Source: Acidobacteriota bacterium (GTDB lineage Bacteria > Acidobacteriota > Vicinamibacteria > Vicinamibacterales > UBA8438). From it: a stretch of 64,000 bases of DNA. The translations under genes and the position numbers were made by a program. The DNA lies in assembly GCA_009861545.1 (NCBI GenBank), contig VXME01000076.1:1-64000 (forward strand), written 5' to 3'. The first letter of the stretch is position 1. Each line of letters starts with the position of its first letter. Under the pieces are notes generated by a model, which saw nothing but the letters and a program-made list of their open reading frames with translations, did not search any database and was not told where the DNA came from. Of this stretch, positions 562 through 13,952 are shown in pieces.

Positions 562-2115
562 ATGTTCAAGCTGACGGATACTGAATTGCAGAGCGCCTTC
601 GAAGCCATATCCCATCATGGATACAGTGCCTTGTTTCCACCCCCTCCCGAATGGACAACCGTCACGGACAATTGGCCAGAAATCAGGCAATACCTAGCTG
701 GAATCGATCTTGACGTGTACGTACCGTACAAGCCGCTGCGTGTCTTTGTCCCAAAGAGCAGAGCAAACCTTCGCGTTGCACACTTGCTCCATCCGGAGGA
801 CCTCATCCTTTACACCGCCTTGGTGATAATTGTCAAAGATGACCTGGAAAGCGCCCGTATCTCACGACGCGCCCGCCGGGTCTTTTCGTACAGGACTCAA
901 CCGGGAGTATCTAACCGCCTCTACACTACGCGTGGAGCCTATACGAAGTACCTTGCGGAACTGCAAAGAAAATCGCGCAAACCCACGGTGCGTTTCGTGT
1001 CGATTGCTGATATAGCCGATTTCTATCCTCGCGTAAACCAACACCGCCTTGAGAATGTCATAACGTCTGCTTCCTCCAGCCCTCGTGGCAACGACGTAGC
1101 CAGAGTGCTCGTAAAGAAAATGATCAACCACCTGATGGAAAGTAACAGCTATGGCATTCCGGTAGGTCCACATGCCTCGCGGGTGCTTGGCGAGGCCGTT
1201 CTCATAGATGTTGACGCCCACTTGGAGTCTCAAGGCGTTGACTATGTGCGTTGGGTTGACGACTATCATATATTTTCTCGCACGGAGTACATGGCACAAT
1301 CCGCGGTGTTCCAGCTAGCGGAATGGATATTTGTGAATCATGGGTTGACTCTCCAGTCCGCAAAAACGAAAATTTGGCCAGTTGCGAAATATGTAGATTG
1401 GGTGCTATCCAAACCAGAGGACAGACTGACCGACAGAGACACGCTCCTTGCACTATTCCGTGACTCAGGCTACGTGGAGGAAGAAGCTGACGGTGAAGAA
1501 CTCCAGCGAATGGTTGATCAGATACATGGTTTTGACCTGCAGCAACTATTCCTGGAGTCGATTTCTGATCAAGAGATCGTTGATTACCGGGTTGTACGAT
1601 ACGTCTTGACGCGGCTTCCGAACATTCCTGGAGTGGATGAAGCCCTGAGAATGGGGCTATTGAACATTGTCATTGACCACGCAGAGTTGTTCTATCCGGT
1701 GGTAGAACACATAGCCGAGTACGTCATTTCCTTTCAGAATCTTTCGACGGAAGAGAAACGAAGAATCGGAGGGAAGTTGGCGCGTCCCCTAAAGAGAAGG
1801 CAGAATCCTCCGCCGGCGCACTATGCAATGTGGATTCTATACGTCTTTTCCACGTCCCCGGGGTGGATCAACGCGAGGGAAATCGTCAGCCTTTATACTC
1901 AATCTGCGTCTGAGGTCATAAGGAGGTATGCGGCGCTCGCAATTTCCGTTTGCGGAACTAGGGCTGAGGCTCTTGCTATTCGTCGGGATCTGCCAGCTGC
2001 ATCGAGTTTGCTTCGATTGGCGATTCTGGCCGCCTCCACGAAGTTAGGACAAGACGAACGAAAACATTGGAAACGGGCAAACCCAACTCGCGGCGTAGTC
2101 GAAAAATGCGTGTAG
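562..2115 (+). CDS. Reverse transcriptase of the Abi / unknown-group (defence RT) type
   Basis: A 517-residue RNA-directed DNA polymerase. The palm motifs are clear: motif A ADIADFYPRV with catalytic Asp about 150, the GIPVGPHAS motif at about 198-206, and the YxDD-equivalent RWVDDYHIF with Asp 233-234. The first residue of that box is Trp-Val rather than Tyr-Ala, as in many non-retron, non-group II RTs. Residues from about 290 to the end form a long helical region with no maturase or endonuclease domain, matching the architecture of abortive-infection and defence-associated RTs. The ATG at 562 is preferred over one 66 bases upstream because MFKLTDTELQSAFEAI looks like a natural N-terminus. 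The stop lies 23 bases before res, so the two may be co-transcribed. Base composition is visibly lower in GC than everything around it, pointing to recent transfer. The exact RT subgroup cannot be assigned by eye. Confidence 0.85.
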   Translation: MFKLTDTELQSAFEAISHHGYSALFPPPPEWTTVTDNWPEIRQYLAGIDLDVYVPYKPLRVFVPKSRANLRVAHLLHPEDLILYTALVIIVKDDLESARISRRARRVFSYRTQPGVSNRLYTTRGAYTKYLAELQRKSRKPTVRFVSIADIADFYPRVNQHRLENVITSASSSPRGNDVARVLVKKMINHLMESNSYGIPVGPHASRVLGEAVLIDVDAHLESQGVDYVRWVDDYHIFSRTEYMAQSAVFQLAEWIFVNHGLTLQSAKTKIWPVAKYVDWVLSKPEDRLTDRDTLLALFRDSGYVEEEADGEELQRMVDQIHGFDLQQLFLESISDQEIVDYRVVRYVLTRLPNIPGVDEALRMGLLNIVIDHAELFYPVVEHIAEYVISFQNLSTEEKRRIGGKLARPLKRRQNPPPAHYAMWILYVFSTSPGWINAREIVSLYTQSASEVIRRYAALAISVCGTRAEALAIRRDLPAASSLLRLAILAASTKLGQDERKHWKRANPTRGVVEKCV

Positions 2116-2138: not shown

Positions 2139-5100
2139 ATGGATCCCACATTTTTCGAACAACCCATCCTGAACTCGCCGTACGAGTACCCATCCCGCCA
2201 CTGGGAGCTCGACGCCGGCGGCCAGCCGACGAACAGGATCCTGTCCGAGCGGCGCAAGGTCGCGTTCATCACGCCGATCCCGAAGCCGAAGAAGCAGAAG
2301 GGCGTCCAGCAGGAGAAGATCCTCTTCGACGTGGCCGCGCAGGCGCTCGGGACCGAGGCGCAGCAGTACGACCTGACGGCGTTCATCGGCGGCGTCCGCC
2401 ATCAGGTGGATCGCTGGCGGGAGCTGCCGGATCCGAACGCCTGGAGCGTGACGCCGGAGACCGCACGGCTCCTGCGCCACTGGCGCAGCCATCGGTTCAC
2501 CGACCTCCGTCCCTTCTTCTGCCAGGTTGAGGCGGTCGAAACCGCGATTTGGCTGACCGAGGTGGCGCCGACCCTCGGCAAGGAGGGCCGCGGGTTTCTC
2601 GATCAGATCGACGCCGCCAGCGAAGGCGCCAATCCGGGCCTCGCGAGGTTGGCTCTGAAGCTCGCCACCGGGGCCGGCAAGACCACCGTCATGGCGATGA
2701 TCATCGCCTGGCAGACGGTCAACGCGGTGCGCCGGCCGGGCAGCCGGCGGTTCACGCGCGGCTTCCTGGTGGTGACGCCCGGCGTGACCATCCGCGACCG
2801 GCTGCGGGTGCTTCAGCCGAACGATCCGGACAGCTACTACGCGAGCCGCGAGCTGGTGCCGAGCGACATGCTCCGCGACCTGGAGCGGGCGAAGATCGTC
2901 GTCACCAACTACCACGCGTTCCTGCGGCGCGAGACGCTGCCGCTGTCGAAGGGCGGCCGCGCCCTGCTGCAGGGGCCGGGGCCCGAGCTGCGGACGAAGG
3001 AGACCGAAGGGCAGATGCTGCAGCGCGTCATGCCGGGACTGATGGGCATGAAGCGCATCCTGGCCCTGAACGACGAGGCGCACCACTGCTACCGCGAGAA
3101 GTCGGCCGGCGAGGACGACGAAGGCCCGCTGAAGGGCGACGACCGCAAGGAGGCCGAGCGGAACCGGGAAGCAGCGCGGGTCTGGATCTCGGGGCTTGAA
3201 GCCGTCCAGCGGAAGCTCGGCCTGCAGCGCGTGATCGACCTGTCGGCGACGCCCTTCTTCCTGCGCGGCTCCGGCTACGCGGAGGGGACGCTGTTCCCGT
3301 GGACGGCGAGCGACTTCTCGCTGATGGACGCCATCGAGTGCGGCATCGTGAAGCTGCCGCGCGTGCCGGTGGCCGACAACATCCCCGGCGGCGAGATGCC
3401 GAAGTTCCGGAACCTGTGGGAGCACATCCGCCCGAAGATGCCGAAGCGGGGCCGCGGCAAGGCTGGCGGGCTGGATCCGCTGAGCCTGCCGGTGGAGTTG
3501 CAGACCGCGCTCCAGGCCCTCTACGGCCACTACGAGCAGACGTTCCAGTTGTGGGAGCAGGCCGGCATCGCGGCGCCGCCCTGCTTCATCATCGTCTGCA
3601 ACAACACCTCGACCTCGAAGCTCGTCTACGACTTCGTCTCCGGCTTCTTCCGCGAGAACGAGTACGGCGCCACGACGCTGGTCAACGGCCGCCTGCCGCT
3701 GTTTCGCAACTTCGACGAGCACGGCAACCCGCACCCCCGCCCGCGCACGCTGCTCATCGACAGCGAGCAGCTCGACTCGGGCGAGGCGCTCGACAAGAAC
3801 TTCCGCGCCGCGGCCGGCGACGAGATCGAGCGCTTCCGTCGGGAGATCGTCGCCCGGACGGGTGATCGGAAGCAGGCCGAGCACCTGTCGGACCAGGATC
3901 TGCTCCGCGAAGTGATGAACACGGTCGGCAAGCCGGACACCCTCGGCGGATCCGTCCGCTGCGTCGTCTCCGTCTCGATGCTGACCGAGGGTTGGGACGC
4001 CCGGACGGTCACGCACATCCTGGGCGTCCGCGCTTTCGGCACGCAGCTCCTCTGCGAGCAGGTCGTCGGGCGCGCGCTGCGTCGCCAGTCCTACGATCCC
4101 AACGAGGACGGCCTCTTCGACGTCGAGTACGCCGATGTCCTCGGCATCCCGTTCGATTTCACCGCCAAGCCGGTGCCGGTCAAGCCGCCGCCGCCGCGCG
4201 AGACGGTGCTGGTGCGGGCGATCACGCCGGAACGCGACGCCTGCGAGATCCGCTTCCCGCGGGTGGCTGGCTACCGCGTCGAGCTCCCCGAAGAGCGGCT
4301 GACGGCCCGCTTCAACGACGACTCGACGCTGGAGCTCACCCCCGCGCTGGTCGGCCCGTCCAACACGCGCGTCGAGGGCATCATCGGCGAAGGGGTCGAT
4401 CTGAACCTGATCCATACCCGCGACCTGCGGAAGTCGACCCTGCTGTTTCACCTTACGAAGCGGCTGCTGGAGACCAAGTGGCGGGATCCCGGCGAGGAGC
4501 CGAAGCTGCACCTGTTCGGCCAGCTCAAGCGGATCACCCGGCAGTGGCTCGACGACCACCTCGACTGCAAGGGCGGGACGTATCCGGCGCAGCTCATGTA
4601 CCAGGAACTTGCGGACATGGCGTGCGAACGGATCACGGCCGGGATCGTCTCCAATCTACTGGGCGAGCGTCCGATCAAGGCGATGCTGGATCCCTATAAC
4701 CCCGTCGGGTCGACGCTCCACGTGCGCTTCACGACCTCGAAGAAGCTCCGTTGGGAGACCGACCCCGGCCGCTGCCACATCAACTGGGTCGTGTGCGACA
4801 GCGACTGGGAGGCCCAGTTCTGTCTCGTCGTCGAATCGCATCCGCGGGTGCGCGCCTACGTCAAGAACCACGCCCTCGGCCTCGAGGTGCCCTATCGCTA
4901 CGGTTCCCGGACGCGCCGCTACCTCCCCGATTTCGTCGTGCTCGTCGACGATGGCCGCGGCGACGACGACCTGCTCCGTCTCGTGGTCGAGGTGAAGGGC
5001 TACCGGGGCGAAGACGCCAAGGACAAGAAGACGACGATGGACACCTACTGGGTCCCCGGCGTCAACAACCTCGGCGCCTACGGCCGCTGGGCCTTCGCCG

Positions 5101-5189
5101 AGCTGACGGATGTCTACACGATGGAGGAGGACTTCGAAAGCGCGCTGAAGGGGCAGTTCCAGGCGCTCGTCGAGCGGGCGTTGCCTTGA
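2139..5189 (+). CDS. Type III-like restriction enzyme, Res subunit
   Basis: A 1016-residue SF2 helicase-nuclease that would cut DNA lacking the methylation made by the downstream methyltransferase. Visible motifs are Walker A GAGKT (178-182), a DEAHH box (312-316), the helicase segment SVSMLTEGWDARTVTHILG with the following QLLCEQVVGRALRR, and a C-terminal PD-(D/E)xK nuclease site (PD 930-931, then ExK 951-953 in VVEVKGYRG). Size and order match the large Res proteins paired with beta-class Mod proteins. The gene order here is res, hicB, hicA, mod, all on one strand. GC content is high and uniform, unlike the RT gene just upstream. The ribosome binding site before ATG 2139 is weak, which is compatible with coupling to the RT transcript. 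Confidence 0.9.
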   Translation: MDPTFFEQPILNSPYEYPSRHWELDAGGQPTNRILSERRKVAFITPIPKPKKQKGVQQEKILFDVAAQALGTEAQQYDLTAFIGGVRHQVDRWRELPDPNAWSVTPETARLLRHWRSHRFTDLRPFFCQVEAVETAIWLTEVAPTLGKEGRGFLDQIDAASEGANPGLARLALKLATGAGKTTVMAMIIAWQTVNAVRRPGSRRFTRGFLVVTPGVTIRDRLRVLQPNDPDSYYASRELVPSDMLRDLERAKIVVTNYHAFLRRETLPLSKGGRALLQGPGPELRTKETEGQMLQRVMPGLMGMKRILALNDEAHHCYREKSAGEDDEGPLKGDDRKEAERNREAARVWISGLEAVQRKLGLQRVIDLSATPFFLRGSGYAEGTLFPWTASDFSLMDAIECGIVKLPRVPVADNIPGGEMPKFRNLWEHIRPKMPKRGRGKAGGLDPLSLPVELQTALQALYGHYEQTFQLWEQAGIAAPPCFIIVCNNTSTSKLVYDFVSGFFRENEYGATTLVNGRLPLFRNFDEHGNPHPRPRTLLIDSEQLDSGEALDKNFRAAAGDEIERFRREIVARTGDRKQAEHLSDQDLLREVMNTVGKPDTLGGSVRCVVSVSMLTEGWDARTVTHILGVRAFGTQLLCEQVVGRALRRQSYDPNEDGLFDVEYADVLGIPFDFTAKPVPVKPPPPRETVLVRAITPERDACEIRFPRVAGYRVELPEERLTARFNDDSTLELTPALVGPSNTRVEGIIGEGVDLNLIHTRDLRKSTLLFHLTKRLLETKWRDPGEEPKLHLFGQLKRITRQWLDDHLDCKGGTYPAQLMYQELADMACERITAGIVSNLLGERPIKAMLDPYNPVGSTLHVRFTTSKKLRWETDPGRCHINWVVCDSDWEAQFCLVVESHPRVRAYVKNHALGLEVPYRYGSRTRRYLPDFVVLVDDGRGDDDLLRLVVEVKGYRGEDAKDKKTTMDTYWVPGVNNLGAYGRWAFAELTDVYTMEEDFESALKGQFQALVERALP

Positions 5190-5273
5190 CGAGCGGCAGC
5201 GACGGGGCTACGTTGGCGGCTCCTGTCGGCGGCGGGTGGAGAGATTCGCGACAGGACGAACGAGGGAATGCAC

Positions 5274-5483
5274 ATGGAGTACACCGCGGTCGTGAAGCAT
5301 TGCGGCGAATGGTGGATCGGCTGGATTGAGGAAGTGCCGGGCGTCAACTGCCAGGAACGCACGCACGAGGAGTTGCGGCAGAGCCTCGCCGATGCACTTG
5401 CGGAAGCGCTCGAGTTCAATCGGCGGGACGCTCTGGCCGCGGCCGGTGACGACTATCGGGAAGAGAAGGTCGTCGTTGCATGA
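5274..5483 (+). CDS. hicB: HicB-family antitoxin
   Basis: A small protein of 69 residues with the HicB partial RNase H-like fold signature: MEYTAVVKHCGEWWIGWIEE, then PGVNCQERTHEELRQSL. It should neutralise HicA and repress its own operon. An in-frame ATG lies at 5268, but GAGGG at 5262-5266 is almost touching that codon and sits 7 bases from the ATG at 5274, so 5274 is taken as the start. Its last bases overlap hicA. The antitoxin-first order (hicB then hicA) is one of the two arrangements known for this family. It lies between the restriction and methyltransferase genes. There is no obvious separate C-terminal DNA-binding domain, so autoregulation may be weak. Confidence 0.85.
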   Translation: MEYTAVVKHCGEWWIGWIEEVPGVNCQERTHEELRQSLADALAEALEFNRRDALAAAGDDYREEKVVVA

Positions 5484-5677
5484 AGCGGAGCGAGCTGTTG
5501 CGATACCTGCAGGGCCAAGGGTGCGCACTGGTCCGCGAAGGATCGCGGCATTCCTGGTGGCGCAACCGGTCCGGAGACCGGCGTTCCGCCGTGCCGAGAC
5601 ACCGGGAGATCAACGATACCCTGGCTCGCAAGATCTGTCGTGACCTCGGCGTCGATCCAATCGGACGGGACAAGTAG
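5480..5677 (+). CDS. hicA: HicA-family mRNA interferase toxin
   Basis: A 65-residue HicA toxin, a dsRBD-fold RNase that cleaves translated mRNAs. The key catalytic His is in GSRHSWWRN near residue 25. The N-terminus MKRSELLRYLQGQGCALVREG and the C-terminal INDTLARKICRDLGV are typical of the family, and the length is normal. The start overlaps the hicB stop by 4 bases (ATGA), so translation is coupled. Its stop is 13 bases before the mod start codon, placing the toxin inside the restriction-modification transcription unit. No disruption is seen; the pair should be functional. Confidence 0.85.
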   Translation: MKRSELLRYLQGQGCALVREGSRHSWWRNRSGDRRSAVPRHREINDTLARKICRDLGVDPIGRDK

Positions 5678-5690
5678 ACGGAGGAGCCGC

Positions 5691-8513
5691 ATGGGGCGAG
5701 CCAAAGCGAATCCGCGGACCGTCGCGACCCTCAGGCATGAGGAGGCGTCGCGCAAGAACATCCCCACGGTCGAGTTCCGGTCCGTGATGGAGCGCGCCGA
5801 GCAGAGCCCCGTCCAGGTCGCCTACCAGCGCCGCAACCGCGACCTCGACCCGCAGCTCGTCTGGCGCGGCAAGGACGCGCAGGACTGGTCCGACCTCGTG
5901 GTGCAGGCCCCGCCGCTCTTCATCCAGGAGAAGGTCCACCCGAAGGTGCTCGTCGACGACCTGCGCCGGCAGCGCGGGAACGGGCAGGTCGGGCAAGGCG
6001 GCGACCGCACGGAAGTCCAGCCGGATCTGTTCGCCGACTTCAACGGGCTGCCGAACGATGATGCCCGGACCGAGTTCTACCAGCACGACGCGAACTGGTC
6101 GAACCGGATGATCCTCGGCGACAGCTTGCAGGTGATGGCCTCGCTCGCCGAGCGCGAGGGGCTGCGCGGCAAGGTGCAGTGCATCTACCTCGACCCGCCC
6201 TACGGCATCAAGTTCAACTCGAACTTCCAGTGGTCGACGACCAGCCGCAATGTCAAGGACGGCAAGGCGGAGCACATCAGCCGGGAGCCGGAGCAGGTCA
6301 AGGCGTTTCGGGACACATGGCGAGACGGCATTCATTCGTATCTGACGTACCTGCGCGATCGGTTGATCGTAGCGCGAGAGCTGTTGGCCGAGAGCGGTTC
6401 GATCTTCGTGCAGATCGGCGATGAAAATGTCCATCGGGTGCGGGCGTTGATGGACGAAGTGTTCGGCGAAGGACACTTCGTCGGCGAAATCGTGTTCCAG
6501 AAGACTTCGTCAACTTCGTCAGACTCTCTATCAGGAGTTTTCGATTCTCTCTTGTGGTTCAGTAAGTCTGAATCAACCAAATACCGGGCGCTCTTTCAGC
6601 AGAAGGAACCTGGTTCTGCCGGTGCGAGTCAATACGGATTCGCAGAGAACCCAAGCGGAGAGAGGCGTACCTTGACGGAATGGAGGCAAGGCAGCGTAGA
6701 TGTCAAATCGTTGAAGGTGTTCGCCCACGGTGACATTACCAGCCAGAGGCCAGCACAGGGAGAAGATGTTCGGGAGTTCATCTATGAGGGCAAGCCGTTT
6801 GAGGTCAAGAAGGGTACCTTCAAGACGGATGCGCATGGACTGCGACGGATTTCGCTCGCGAAGCGCATGATATTCGTCGGCAAGACACTGCGTTACGTTC
6901 GGTTTCTGAACGACTTCTCCGTATTCCCGCATTCCAATCTGTGGACTGATACAACTACGTCGGGATTTGATGACCCCAAGGTTTTCGTCGTACAGACGAA
7001 CCGTACCGTTGTCGAGCGTTGCATCCTCATGACCACCGACCCCGGCGACTTGGTGCTCGATCCTACCTGCGGTTCCGGTACAACCGCGTATGTCGCCGAG
7101 CAATGGGGCCGCCGCTGGATCACCATCGATACCTCCCGAGTAGCGCTGGCACTCGCCCGTGCCCGCGTCATGGGTGCGCGCTACCCGTACTACCTTCTCG
7201 CTGACAGTCCGGAAGGGCAGCGCAAGGAGGCCGAGATCACGCGCAAGGCACCCTCGGAGACACCGACGCACGGTGACGTCCGGCAGGGGTTCGTCTACGA
7301 GCGGGTGCCGCACATCACGCTCAAGTCGATTGCCAACAACGCCGAGATCGACGTCATCTGGGAGCGCTGGCAGGAGACGCTGGAGCCGTTACGCGACGAC
7401 CTGAACGCCAAGCTCGATGGCGACTGGGAGGAGTGGCAGATTCCCCGCGAGGCGTCCGAGGACTGGCCGGCGGAGGCGGTCGAGGCGCATCGCCTCTGGT
7501 GGGAGGCGCGCATCGCCCGGCAACAGGAGATCGACGCCTCCATCGCGGCCCGGGCCGACTACGAGTACCTCTACGACAAGCCCTACGAGGACAACCGGAA
7601 GGTCCGGGTGGCGGGACCGTTCACGGTGGAGAGCCTGTCGCCGCACCGCGTGTTGGCGGTCGATGAGGACGACGAGCTCATCGACCGCGCCGCCGAGCCG
7701 AGGGCCGACTACGGGCTGCAGCAGGACTTCGCGGCCATGATCCTGGAGCAGCTCGCGGCCGCCGGCGTGCAGCAGGCGCACAAGGAGGATCGCATCGCCT
7801 TCGCCGCCGTCACGCCCTGGCCGGGCGAGTACATCTGCGCGGAGGGACGCTACCGCGAGAGCGATGGCGATGCCGGCCCGGAGAAGCGCGCCGGGATCTT
7901 CGTCGGCCCCGAGTTCGGCACCGTGGCCCGACCGGACCTGGTGGCGGCCGCGCGCGAGGCGGGCGACGCCGGCTTCGACGTCCTGATCGGCTGCGCGTTC
8001 AACTACGAGGCGCACGCGTCCGAGTTCAACCGCCTCGGCCGCATCCCGGTGCTGAAGGCGCGCATGAACGCCGACCTCCACATGGCCGACGAGCTGAAGA
8101 ACACCGGCAAGGGCAACCTGTTCGTCATCTTCGGCGAGCCGGACATAGACATCCTCCCGGTCGGCGACGAAGGCGACGGCGGCACGCGCATCCAGGTGCG
8201 GATCAACGGCGTGGACGTCTTCCACCCGACCACCGGCGAGGTCCGCAGCGACGGCGCCGACGGCATCGCCTGCTGGTTCATCGACACCGACTACAACGAG
8301 GAGAGCTTCTTCGTCCGGCACGCCTACTTCCTCGGCGCGAACGACCCCTACAAGGCGCTGAAGACGACGCTGAAGGCCGAGATCGACGCCCACGCGTGGG
8401 CGTCGCTCCACAGCGACGTCTCGCGCCCGTTCGACCGCCCGGAGTCGGGCCGCATCGCCGTCAAGGTCATCAACCACCTCGGCGACGAGGTGATGAAGGT
8501 GTTCCGGGTGTGA
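5691..8513 (+). CDS. Beta-class (type III Mod-like) DNA methyltransferase
   Basis: A 940-residue site-specific DNA methyltransferase that would protect the host from the Res protein. DPPY (168-171) precedes the AdoMet motif DPTCGSG (457-463); this motif order defines the beta class used by type III Mod proteins for N6-adenine or N4-cytosine. A long C-terminal region of about 400 residues follows, as in the large Mod proteins that pair with this Res type. The ATG at 5691 is chosen because GGAGGAG at 5680-5686 sits 4 bases upstream; an in-frame ATG at 5640 would lie inside hicA. The segment 6490-7020, between the two motifs and expected to hold the target recognition domain, is much lower in GC than the flanks. 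The last 95 bases are duplicated at 9253-9347. Confidence 0.9.
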   Translation: MGRAKANPRTVATLRHEEASRKNIPTVEFRSVMERAEQSPVQVAYQRRNRDLDPQLVWRGKDAQDWSDLVVQAPPLFIQEKVHPKVLVDDLRRQRGNGQVGQGGDRTEVQPDLFADFNGLPNDDARTEFYQHDANWSNRMILGDSLQVMASLAEREGLRGKVQCIYLDPPYGIKFNSNFQWSTTSRNVKDGKAEHISREPEQVKAFRDTWRDGIHSYLTYLRDRLIVARELLAESGSIFVQIGDENVHRVRALMDEVFGEGHFVGEIVFQKTSSTSSDSLSGVFDSLLWFSKSESTKYRALFQQKEPGSAGASQYGFAENPSGERRTLTEWRQGSVDVKSLKVFAHGDITSQRPAQGEDVREFIYEGKPFEVKKGTFKTDAHGLRRISLAKRMIFVGKTLRYVRFLNDFSVFPHSNLWTDTTTSGFDDPKVFVVQTNRTVVERCILMTTDPGDLVLDPTCGSGTTAYVAEQWGRRWITIDTSRVALALARARVMGARYPYYLLADSPEGQRKEAEITRKAPSETPTHGDVRQGFVYERVPHITLKSIANNAEIDVIWERWQETLEPLRDDLNAKLDGDWEEWQIPREASEDWPAEAVEAHRLWWEARIARQQEIDASIAARADYEYLYDKPYEDNRKVRVAGPFTVESLSPHRVLAVDEDDELIDRAAEPRADYGLQQDFAAMILEQLAAAGVQQAHKEDRIAFAAVTPWPGEYICAEGRYRESDGDAGPEKRAGIFVGPEFGTVARPDLVAAAREAGDAGFDVLIGCAFNYEAHASEFNRLGRIPVLKARMNADLHMADELKNTGKGNLFVIFGEPDIDILPVGDEGDGGTRIQVRINGVDVFHPTTGEVRSDGADGIACWFIDTDYNEESFFVRHAYFLGANDPYKALKTTLKAEIDAHAWASLHSDVSRPFDRPESGRIAVKVINHLGDEVMKVFRV
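8419..8513 (+). repeat. 95-bp direct repeat, copy 1 (3' end of mod)
   Basis: This stretch encodes the last 31 residues of the methyltransferase and its stop codon. It recurs at 9253-9347 with two mismatches in 95 bases. The two copies bracket the PIN/antitoxin cassette at 8514-9252. Confidence 0.9.
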
Positions 8514-9252: not shown

Positions 9253-9347
9253 TCTCGCGTCCGTTCGACCGCCCCGAGTCGGGCCGCATCGCCGTCAAGG
9301 TCATCAACCACCTCGGCGACGAGGTGATGAAGGTGTTCCGGGTGTGA
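9253..9347 (+). repeat. 95-bp direct repeat, copy 2 (detached mod tail)
   Basis: A second copy of the mod 3' end (93 of 95 bases match 8419-8513). It still encodes the methyltransferase C-terminus in frame through a TGA at 9345-9347, but is separated from any methyltransferase body. It probably marks the insertion or duplication event that placed the PIN cassette here. Confidence 0.9.
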
Positions 9348-9378: not shown

Positions 9379-10368
9379 ATGGCCAGCGGTGAACAGCTCA
9401 AGGCGCTGCTGAAGTCGCACGCGGATGGCGATGACGACCGGTTCTTCTCCGTCGCCATGCAGGTGGCTGCCCACGAGGCGCGGCGCGGGCATGGGAGACT
9501 CGCGGAGGAGCTGCGCACCCTGATCGATCGCGCCAAGAGCAAGCCAGGAACCGTGGCGCCGGTCCCGATCGGGCGACCGCGCGGCGAGTTGGCGAACCTG
9601 CTGGGAGCGTCCTATCCGAGCGAGCGGTTGGGACAGATGGTGCTGGGCAAGGAGCTCGGGGATCAGATTCAACGTGTGATTCGGGAGCAGCGCCATGCGG
9701 GGCGCATCGTGGAGCGGGGACTCGCACCGCGCCGGAAGTTGTTGTTGACGGGACCGCCCGGCACCGGCAAGACGCTGACGGCGGCCGTTCTGGCCGGCGA
9801 GCTGGGGCTTCCACTTCTGCAGGTGCGCCTCGACGGGCTCATCACCAAGTACATGGGGGAGACGGCGGCCAAGCTGCGTCAGATCTTCGAGGCGACAGGC
9901 CGAACGCGGGGGGTCTACTTCTTCGACGAGTTCGACGCGATTGGCTCGCAGCGCGGGCTCGCGAACGATGTCGGCGAGATCCGACGTGTCCTCAATAGTT
10001 TTCTCCAGATGATCGAGCAGGATCGCTCCCACAGCCTCGTCATTGCCGCGACCAACCATCCAGGCATTCTCGATCCGGCGCTCTTCCGTCGCTTCGACGA
10101 CATCCTGCACTACGAGTTGCCCGACACGGCGCAGATTGCACGACTCCTCAGGACGCGGCTCGCTTCGGGGGCCGTGAAGCGGATCCGCTGGCGCAGCCTC
10201 GCCGCCCTCGCCGCGGGCCTGAGCTACGCGGAGGTGGTTCGCGCCGCCGACGAGGCGCTGAAGGATGCCCTGATTCAACAGCGGGCTCTGGTTCGCGAAG
10301 CGGACATCCGGGTGATGCTGAAGGAGCGCCTGGCCATCGCCGATAAGCTGGCTGCGAGAGGAGTGTAG
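9379..10368 (+). CDS. AAA+ ATPase (partner type of S8 peptidase)
   Basis: A 329-residue classical AAA+ protein. Walker A is GPPGTGKT (125-132) and Walker B is VYFFDEFD (Asp-Glu 183-184). The pore-loop-like segment LITKYMGETAAKL and the FRRFDD arginine-finger segment are present. Residues 1-90 form a helical N-terminal domain without a recognisable fold. It should act as an oligomeric remodelling ATPase. In many genomes this type of ATPase is followed immediately by a subtilisin-like S8 peptidase with which it presumably works; here only the tail of such a peptidase remains directly downstream. The gene itself is intact. A specific role in defence is inferred from neighbours. Confidence 0.85.
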   Translation: MASGEQLKALLKSHADGDDDRFFSVAMQVAAHEARRGHGRLAEELRTLIDRAKSKPGTVAPVPIGRPRGELANLLGASYPSERLGQMVLGKELGDQIQRVIREQRHAGRIVERGLAPRRKLLLTGPPGTGKTLTAAVLAGELGLPLLQVRLDGLITKYMGETAAKLRQIFEATGRTRGVYFFDEFDAIGSQRGLANDVGEIRRVLNSFLQMIEQDRSHSLVIAATNHPGILDPALFRRFDDILHYELPDTAQIARLLRTRLASGAVKRIRWRSLAALAAGLSYAEVVRAADEALKDALIQQRALVREADIRVMLKERLAIADKLAARGV

Positions 10369-10863
10369 CGACAAGGCGCAGCATGGCCCCGGTACCGATA
10401 CGAGTCCCACGGTCTCCGTTTCGACGTGAAGCGACCCCTTGAGTCGGTGGATGAGTTTCGCAGCAGGATCAACGTAGCGGCGCGAGACGAAGAGGAAGGG
10501 ACCCGTCGCGCGCAGGGCAGCGATCCCGAGTGGTTGATTGATCGTGGGCCACAACGGAGTCTCGCGCGAAGTCTTCGTCGCGCGCAGGGCAGCGATCCCG
10601 AGTGGTTGATTGGGAAGCAGACTCGTCACAGAGGTTCACTGCATGCGGACATCTGGCGCGGCAGCGCGGCTGATCTCGCAAGCCGGGGGAGCCTCGCCGT
10701 CTACCCTGCGGTAGGTTGGTGGAAGACCCGTCAAGCTCTCGAGAGATACGACCAAACCGCGCGATACGCGCTCGTCGTCAGCATCAAGGCGCCGGAGGTC
10801 GACGTGGATCTCCGGACGGAAGTCGCGAACCAGATCGGTGTGCCGGTCGAGATAGAGACCTGA
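10369..10863 (+). pseudogene. C-terminal remnant of an S8 (subtilisin-like) peptidase
   Basis: The frame is open straight after the ATPase stop and encodes ESHGLRFDVKRPLESVDEFR and, later, HRGSLHADIWRGSAADLA, YPAVGWWKTRQALERY and NQIGVPVEIET. These are recalled as the conserved C-terminus of the S8 peptidases that accompany this ATPase. No start codon with a ribosome site and no Asp/His/Ser catalytic region is present, so the N-terminal catalytic part (normally several hundred residues) has been lost by deletion. Two perfect 37-bp repeats lie within it. The stop overlaps the start of the next gene (TGATG). Confidence 0.7.
10504..10612. repeat. Two identical 37-bp repeats separated by 35 bp
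   Basis: Copies at 10504-10540 and 10576-10612 match in all 37 positions, with a unique 35-base segment between them (period 72 bases, 24 codons). Both are read in the same frame inside the S8 remnant and encode RRAQGSDPEWLI. The second copy runs smoothly into conserved peptidase sequence. The spacing resembles one CRISPR unit, but the coding context argues for an in-frame duplication or insertion. Confidence 0.8.
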
Positions 10864-13255: not shown

Positions 13256-13747
13256 ATGAAGCCGCGTGTCTACGTCGAAACCAGCGTCGTCAGCTATCTG
13301 ACGGCCCGGCCCGCGCGTGACATAGTGATTGCAGGGCGGCAGCAGAGCACGCGAGACTGGTGGGCCGGTACGAAGGAGCGGTTCGAGTTGGTGATTTCGG
13401 AACTGGTTCGGGAAGAAGCGGCGGTGGGAGATCGCGATGCCGCGCAATCGCGGCTGGCGGCGATCTCGCCGCTTCCCGTGATCGGCGCCACGCCGGAAGT
13501 CGCACGACTGGCGCGAGCGCTGGTCGACGCCAAGGCCGTGCCCGAGCGGGCTGCGCAGGATGCCGTGCACATCGCGATCGCCGCCGTGCACCGGGTGCCG
13601 TTCCTCGTGACATGGAATTTCCGGCACATCGCGAACGCCGCGGCGCGGCCACGGATCGAGGCCGTGTGTCGAGACGCCGGCATCGACCCGCCGCTCCTGT
13701 GCACGCCGGAGCAGCTTGTCGTAGCGGAGGACGACGATGAAACCTGA
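13256..13747 (+). CDS. PIN-domain toxin (intact copy)
   Basis: A 163-residue PIN protein, MKPRVYVETSVVSYLTARPA, with later acidic residues expected for the metal site in RAAQDAVHIAIAAVH and a LVTWNFRHIANAAARPRIEA segment near the C-terminus. PIN toxins cut RNA. It is the undamaged paralogue of the frameshifted gene at 8527-9020. The first ATG at 13253 gives one extra Met; 13256 is taken because the other copy has only this one. The stop lies inside the next gene, so the pair is translationally coupled, with the toxin first. This order is less common than antitoxin-first. Confidence 0.8.
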   Translation: MKPRVYVETSVVSYLTARPARDIVIAGRQQSTRDWWAGTKERFELVISELVREEAAVGDRDAAQSRLAAISPLPVIGATPEVARLARALVDAKAVPERAAQDAVHIAIAAVHRVPFLVTWNFRHIANAAARPRIEAVCRDAGIDPPLLCTPEQLVVAEDDDET

Positions 13748-13952
13748 TCCGATTGTGGCCGAGGTGCGCGCCGTGCGCGACAGGCTCGCAGCGCGTTTCA
13801 ACTATGACATCGACGCCATTGTCCGGCACATCCGGAGCATGGAAGCCGCATCGGGCCGCACCTTCGTGCAGCCTCCGCAGAGCAGCATCGCCGCAATGAA
13901 TGCCGCGACGGATAATGCACCGGGCGAGGGACGCGGTGCAAATGAGTCATGA
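13737..13952 (+). CDS. Small antitoxin-like partner of the intact PIN protein
   Basis: A 71-residue protein beginning MKPDPIVAEVRAVRDRLAARFNYDIDAIV, preceded by GGAGG inside the PIN gene. It is similar over its first 45 residues to the gene at 9010-9228 and then diverges. An antitoxin role is inferred from the conserved overlap with a PIN gene in both copies; no DNA-binding fold can be recognised. Confidence 0.6.
   Translation: MKPDPIVAEVRAVRDRLAARFNYDIDAIVRHIRSMEAASGRTFVQPPQSSIAAMNAATDNAPGEGRGANES

Follow-up and report, generated by a model that had tools for sequence, protein, structure and literature searches.

A gene for a reverse transcriptase (RT) ends directly ahead of a restriction endonuclease gene, res, in a genome assigned to Acidobacteriota. 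The arrangement raises the question of whether the RT belongs with the downstream Res-HicBA-Mod genes to one composite system or is a recent insertion in front of them, both of which had been proposed in an initial annotation. We analysed a window of 64,000 nucleotides (contig VXME01000076.1, positions 1 to 64,000), in which the locus is laid out as follows.

2 to 276, + strand: left anchor gene, 3′ end only, encoding an NQR2/RnfD-like membrane protein of ~528 aa (82-85% identical at the DNA level to its counterparts in G003 and G001, two congeneric species)
264 to 561, + strand: unshared sequence, forming the left end of the inserted interval (no unusual folding, Rfam match or sigma-70-like promoter)
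562 to 2115, + strand: defence RT, DRT8-type (UG7-type), 517 aa (PADLOC Drt8, 405 bits over residues 3-510; tree)
562 to 1416, + strand: RT domain, residues ~1-285 (Pfam RVT_1; 260 residues aligned with a group II intron RT, VIA-align Z 24.2)
1009 to 1026, + strand: motif A, DIADFY, with catalytic Asp150 (sequence; invariant in the alignment)
1252 to 1263, + strand: WVDD box, with Asp233 and Asp234 (sequence; subclade comparison)
1492 to 2112, + strand: predicted C-terminal helical-repeat domain, residues 311-517 (structure model; end-to-end alignment with DRT6, DRT4 and AbiK)
2116 to 2138, + strand: RT-res gap of 23 nt, whose last 12 nt, ACCTGACGCAAG, are also present in G003 and delimit the variable interval on the right
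2139 to 5189, + strand: res, the right anchor, encoding a BPTD_3080-family restriction endonuclease of 1016 aa (NCBIfam NF046055, 1321.6 bits, cut-off 800)
5268 to 5483, + strand: weak HicB-like antitoxin (UPF0150-like, 19.9 bits, below the cut-off of 27.3)
5480 to 5677, + strand: HicA toxin (Pfam HicA_toxin, 38 bits, cut-off 27)
5691 to 8513, + strand: mod, type III DNA methyltransferase (PADLOC MTase_III PDLC03632, 1384 bits; Pfam N6_N4_Mtase)

We consider it likely that the RT is a self-contained, single-gene defence RT of the DRT8 type, carried as exchangeable cargo ahead of res and forming no system with Res-Mod.

Family placement and the WVDD subclade

The RT gene is intact and retains its catalytic residues. 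The open reading frame runs from an ATG at 562 to a stop at 2115, and relatives begin at the same Met-Phe. Pfam RVT_1 matches the protein at 36.1 bits (cut-off 29.6), and D150, D233 and D234 are invariant in an alignment of 11 sequences. The initial annotation had read the gene as a low-GC RT with catalytic motifs, WVDD in place of YADD, a helical C-terminal region and an end 23 bases ahead of res on the same strand. This description holds throughout. R-W-V-D-D is encoded at 1249-1263, the predicted model is helical from residues 311 to 516, and the distance from the RT stop to the res ATG at 2139 is exactly 23 nt. The GC content of the gene is 0.514 (GC3 0.55), against 0.679 (GC3 0.925) for res and a mean of 0.694 (sd 0.022, minimum 0.604) for 200 other 1554-bp windows of the contig.

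Profile scores assign the RT to DRT8. The PADLOC Drt8 profile (PDLC03783), with UG21 as a distant runner-up at 146 bits, also matches all 11 members of the alignment and heads the table. The group assignment rests on these scores; the tree covers the Drt8 members, with five more distant RTs as the sole outgroup. Within this tree of 23 RTs, the 18 Drt8 rows group together (98/98), and the window RT falls in a subclade of seven (99/98) beside the 11 other Drt8 members. By profile and tree, it is a member of a divergent subclade of the known DRT8 defence family, which we take to correspond to UG7. UG7 RTs are listed in the myRT paper, one of them with a HicB neighbour (PMC8934634).

The subclade is taxonomically scattered and has its own catalytic box. 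Its six other members come from Cyanobacteriota, Myxococcota, Pseudomonadota, an endosymbiont and another genome of the window's own phylum. The window RT is like DRT8 in its full-length profile match, single-gene organisation, RT plus helical repeats and catalytic aspartates. It is unlike other DRT8 members in its motif, since WVDD is fixed in all seven subclade members whereas the others in the tree have [YF]xDD, and in its sequence, with 23-29% identity between the subclade and the other aligned Drt8 members. Because seven intact genes from several phyla all keep WVDD, the motif is best read as a maintained subclade signature and not as decay. This weighs against the view that the RT is an inert passenger, acquired horizontally and inactive either through the W for Y replacement in YxDD or through lack of expression. 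W is unusual at this position, and no sigma-70-like promoter was found upstream, although the scan may suit this organism poorly; with the catalytic aspartates all kept and the frame open, we nevertheless regard an inert RT as improbable.

Two other loci with Drt8 relatives carry adjacent genes of potential interest. A 332-aa gene (L036, 3094-4092) lies ~37 nt after a canonical Drt8 RT (G242); it is SLOG-like by eye, has hydrophobic helices and is a possible accessory gene. In a Myxococcota MAG (L009, 8001-13492), the closest relative of the window RT is followed by genes for an OLD-type ATPase and a UvrD-type helicase, which appear Gabija-like by eye.

Predicted fold, chemistry and single-gene organisation

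The predicted structure of the RT resembles that of class 1 enzymes. In an AlphaFold2 model (pLDDT 84.6, pTM 0.85), the RT domain ends near residue 285 and is connected by a low-confidence linker to a helical-repeat domain. Matches to solved structures extend along the whole chain for DRT6 (454 residues, Z 21.9), DRT4 (447 residues, Z 19.5) and AbiK (446 residues, Z 18.4); the ncRNA-using DRT9 and DRT2 align mainly across the RT domain. The model thus matches the class 1 UG/Abi architecture, an RT fused to helical HEAT-like repeats, described in PMC13174585. DRT4 (UG15) and DRT6 share with the window RT this whole-chain fold and a single-gene organisation (PMC13213688), but they belong to different families and their PADLOC profiles score much more weakly, at 74 and 66 bits, respectively. 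The abortive-infection polymerases AbiK and Abi-P2 likewise have the RT plus helical-repeat fold, but show only 12-18% identity along the aligned chains.

Class 1 chemistry offers a possible mechanism. Template-independent, often protein-primed DNA synthesis by class 1 enzymes is reported (PMC13174585, PMC13275509); a 2026 overview lists the mechanism of DRT8 as not established (PMC13213688). For this reason, the mechanism proposed here rests on fold and family. Like DRT4, DRT6 and AbiK, the RT would assemble as a homo-oligomer; it would make protein-primed DNA without a nucleic-acid template; and, upon a phage trigger, it would stop or kill the infected cell. We lean slightly towards this class 1-like mechanism, although the divergent WVDD subclade could behave differently from other Drt8 members.

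The RT appears to make up a module by itself, with no ncRNA or partner in evidence. No conserved partner gene was seen across the Drt8 locus contexts compared, and neighbour genes vary from one locus to the next. The initial call of a defence-type RT is supported, and the subgroup, which that call had left open, is one that occurs as a lone gene. Between two cyanobacterial RT copies (90.5% protein identity), DNA similarity extends from 49 nt before the ATG to the stop, with short scattered matches in addition; in two further pairs of relatives, it is confined to the RT open reading frame. Class 2 UG RTs (DRT2, DRT9) have a conserved ncRNA beside the RT, whereas none was detected here, a result that rests on non-conservation in these three pairs (beyond the 49 nt and short matches) and on an Rfam search upstream of the RT that returned no match. 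The 298 nt of unshared upstream sequence might be taken to favour a class 2-like RT that copies a cis-encoded ncRNA, as in DRT2 and DRT9. However, the folding energy of the 285 nt ahead of the RT is scarcely better than that of shuffled sequences (z -1.26), and the full-length fold matches are to class 1 enzymes. We therefore judge a class 2-like RT to be very unlikely.

The restriction operon and the genes behind it

Of the Res-HicBA-Mod genes that had been described downstream of the RT, profiles confirm a BPTD_3080-family Res, HicA and a type III Mod; HicB is represented by a HicB-like ORF whose match lies below the cut-off. In the window, HicBA lies between res and mod, while in two genomes of the same family (G013 and G019) it lies ahead of res. 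More distant relatives have small modules, comprising a DUF5131 gene or HicA/HicB, between res and mod or behind res (L048, 9700-11300; L049, 13696-14171), so this gap recurrently houses small genes.

The operon itself shows signs of change. A low-GC stretch in the middle of mod (window 6467-6987) has no DNA similarity to the mod of G003, with ~90% identity or more on both sides. It is a probable target-recognition region, and the difference probably reflects a swap of specificity. In G003, an in-frame TAG interrupts res (L042, 6525-9623), and broken res frames also occur in several other relatives. Thus, restriction seems to be decaying in this group.

Behind mod, the window departs from its relatives. 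The last 95 nt of mod (8419-8513) recur with 98% identity at 9253-9347, after a PIN-domain gene, and the PIN region has a second copy (72-93%) at 13256-13878; in G001 and G003, mod runs directly into IetA. The repeat and the second PIN copy look like the product of cassette insertion or unequal recombination at the 3′ end of mod. Further on, window 9379-10860 encodes IetA (238 bits) and only a C-terminal remnant of IetS (18 bits), while G001 and G003 retain an 834-aa ORF behind IetA. The IetA of the window may be an orphan.

The same two flanks enclose different defence systems

The stretch bounded by one pair of flanking genes holds DRT8, Gabija and a RADAR-like operon, respectively, in three related species. 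The flanks are the same because both the left gene and res-mod match G001 and G003. Window 2-263 matches the 3′ end of the membrane-protein gene in these genomes, and res and mod are 90-95% identical to theirs at the DNA level (91-95% for the right flank, res). On this side, the match sets in at the start of res or no more than ~12 nt away from it. The left gene, whose Pfam NQR2_RnfD_RnfE match is slightly below cut-off, is split between contigs: its first 436 codons terminate contig C126 of the same genome, and the C126 end and the window start, aligned to G003, are ~5 bp apart. The contents of the interval are as follows.

Window genome: 1.86 kb, with the RT alone
G001: ~7.5 kb, a Gabija system (GajA, 734 bits; GajB, 613 bits) plus a DUF3800 gene
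G003: ~13.7 kb, RADAR-like, encoding an AAA ATPase, an RdrB-type protein that has an adenosine deaminase domain (126 bits) and a UvrA-like ABC protein

At this position, the RT is allelically replaced by Gabija or a RADAR-like operon in the other two species. The proposal of a fresh insertion ahead of res is supported. The congeners keep the left gene and res-mod without the RT. The scattered taxonomy of the subclade, together with low GC, points to horizontal acquisition of the RT. We propose that it entered a variable interval bounded by res and a conserved membrane-protein gene, the same interval that other defence systems occupy in the two other species. No flanking direct repeats of note were found in 230-2200, and no transposase profile matched within 11-608. 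Searches of viral contigs found no relative, and those of plasmids found only distant ones (28-32% identity).

Possibly, this genus maintains a dedicated exchange site, in which res-mod serves as a fixed anchor and whole defence systems are swapped in front of it, perhaps via recombination between the left gene and res. We put this forward tentatively, and for this genus only, because the upstream genes at 29 other Res loci of the phylum are mostly ordinary chromosomal ones, as judged by eye. On the same grounds, we rejected the idea that BPTD_3080 res is generally preceded by a defence slot. In E. coli, defence islands and hotspots are similar in that one locus holds different defence systems in related genomes (PMC10121019). 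Here, by contrast, a res-mod operon itself serves as the right anchor, and the comparison covers three genomes.

The adjacency of RT and res appears, as far as sampled, to be particular to this genome. The pairing was sought in genomes of the same genus, the same family and the phylum, and at all other Drt8 loci, and was not found; many of these loci extend ~1.5 kb on each side. Among 66 overlapping Res locus records, a Drt8-type RT occurs only in the window's own, and none of the 18 other Drt8 loci has Res within the stretch compared. The BPTD_3080 Res family is absent from 10 of the 11 other Drt8 genomes, and the eleventh has Res on a different contig. Although the shared strand, the 23-nt gap and a possibly shared transcript would suit an RT that acts with restriction or is regulated by it (e.g., when Res is inhibited), the proposed RT and Res-HicBA-Mod composite is not supported and is very unlikely, given congeners with res-mod but no RT, unrelated systems in the interval of sister genomes and no conserved tie to Res in either direction of the search. 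Both grounds on which the initial annotation would have given up the composite apply: the RT belongs to a group that occurs as a lone gene, and in no other sampled genome does it adjoin this res.

A self-contained DRT8-type RT could still be co-transcribed with res. With the shared res leader cut down to ~12 nt by the insertion, read-through of res from the RT transcript is probable, and it would be a by-product of position.

These results prevent the naming of a false RT-Res composite system, and illustrate that same-strand closeness inside a defence island is weak evidence for joint function. The RT itself is ordinary in kind, and what is useful here is the three-way swap in front of res: with DRT8, Gabija and a RADAR-like system exchanged across three related species at one position between two shared genes, the locus provides a clean natural example of defence-system turnover. 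Furthermore, the intact WVDD subclade of DRT8, present in several phyla, offers a compact single-gene candidate for learning what DRT8 produces.
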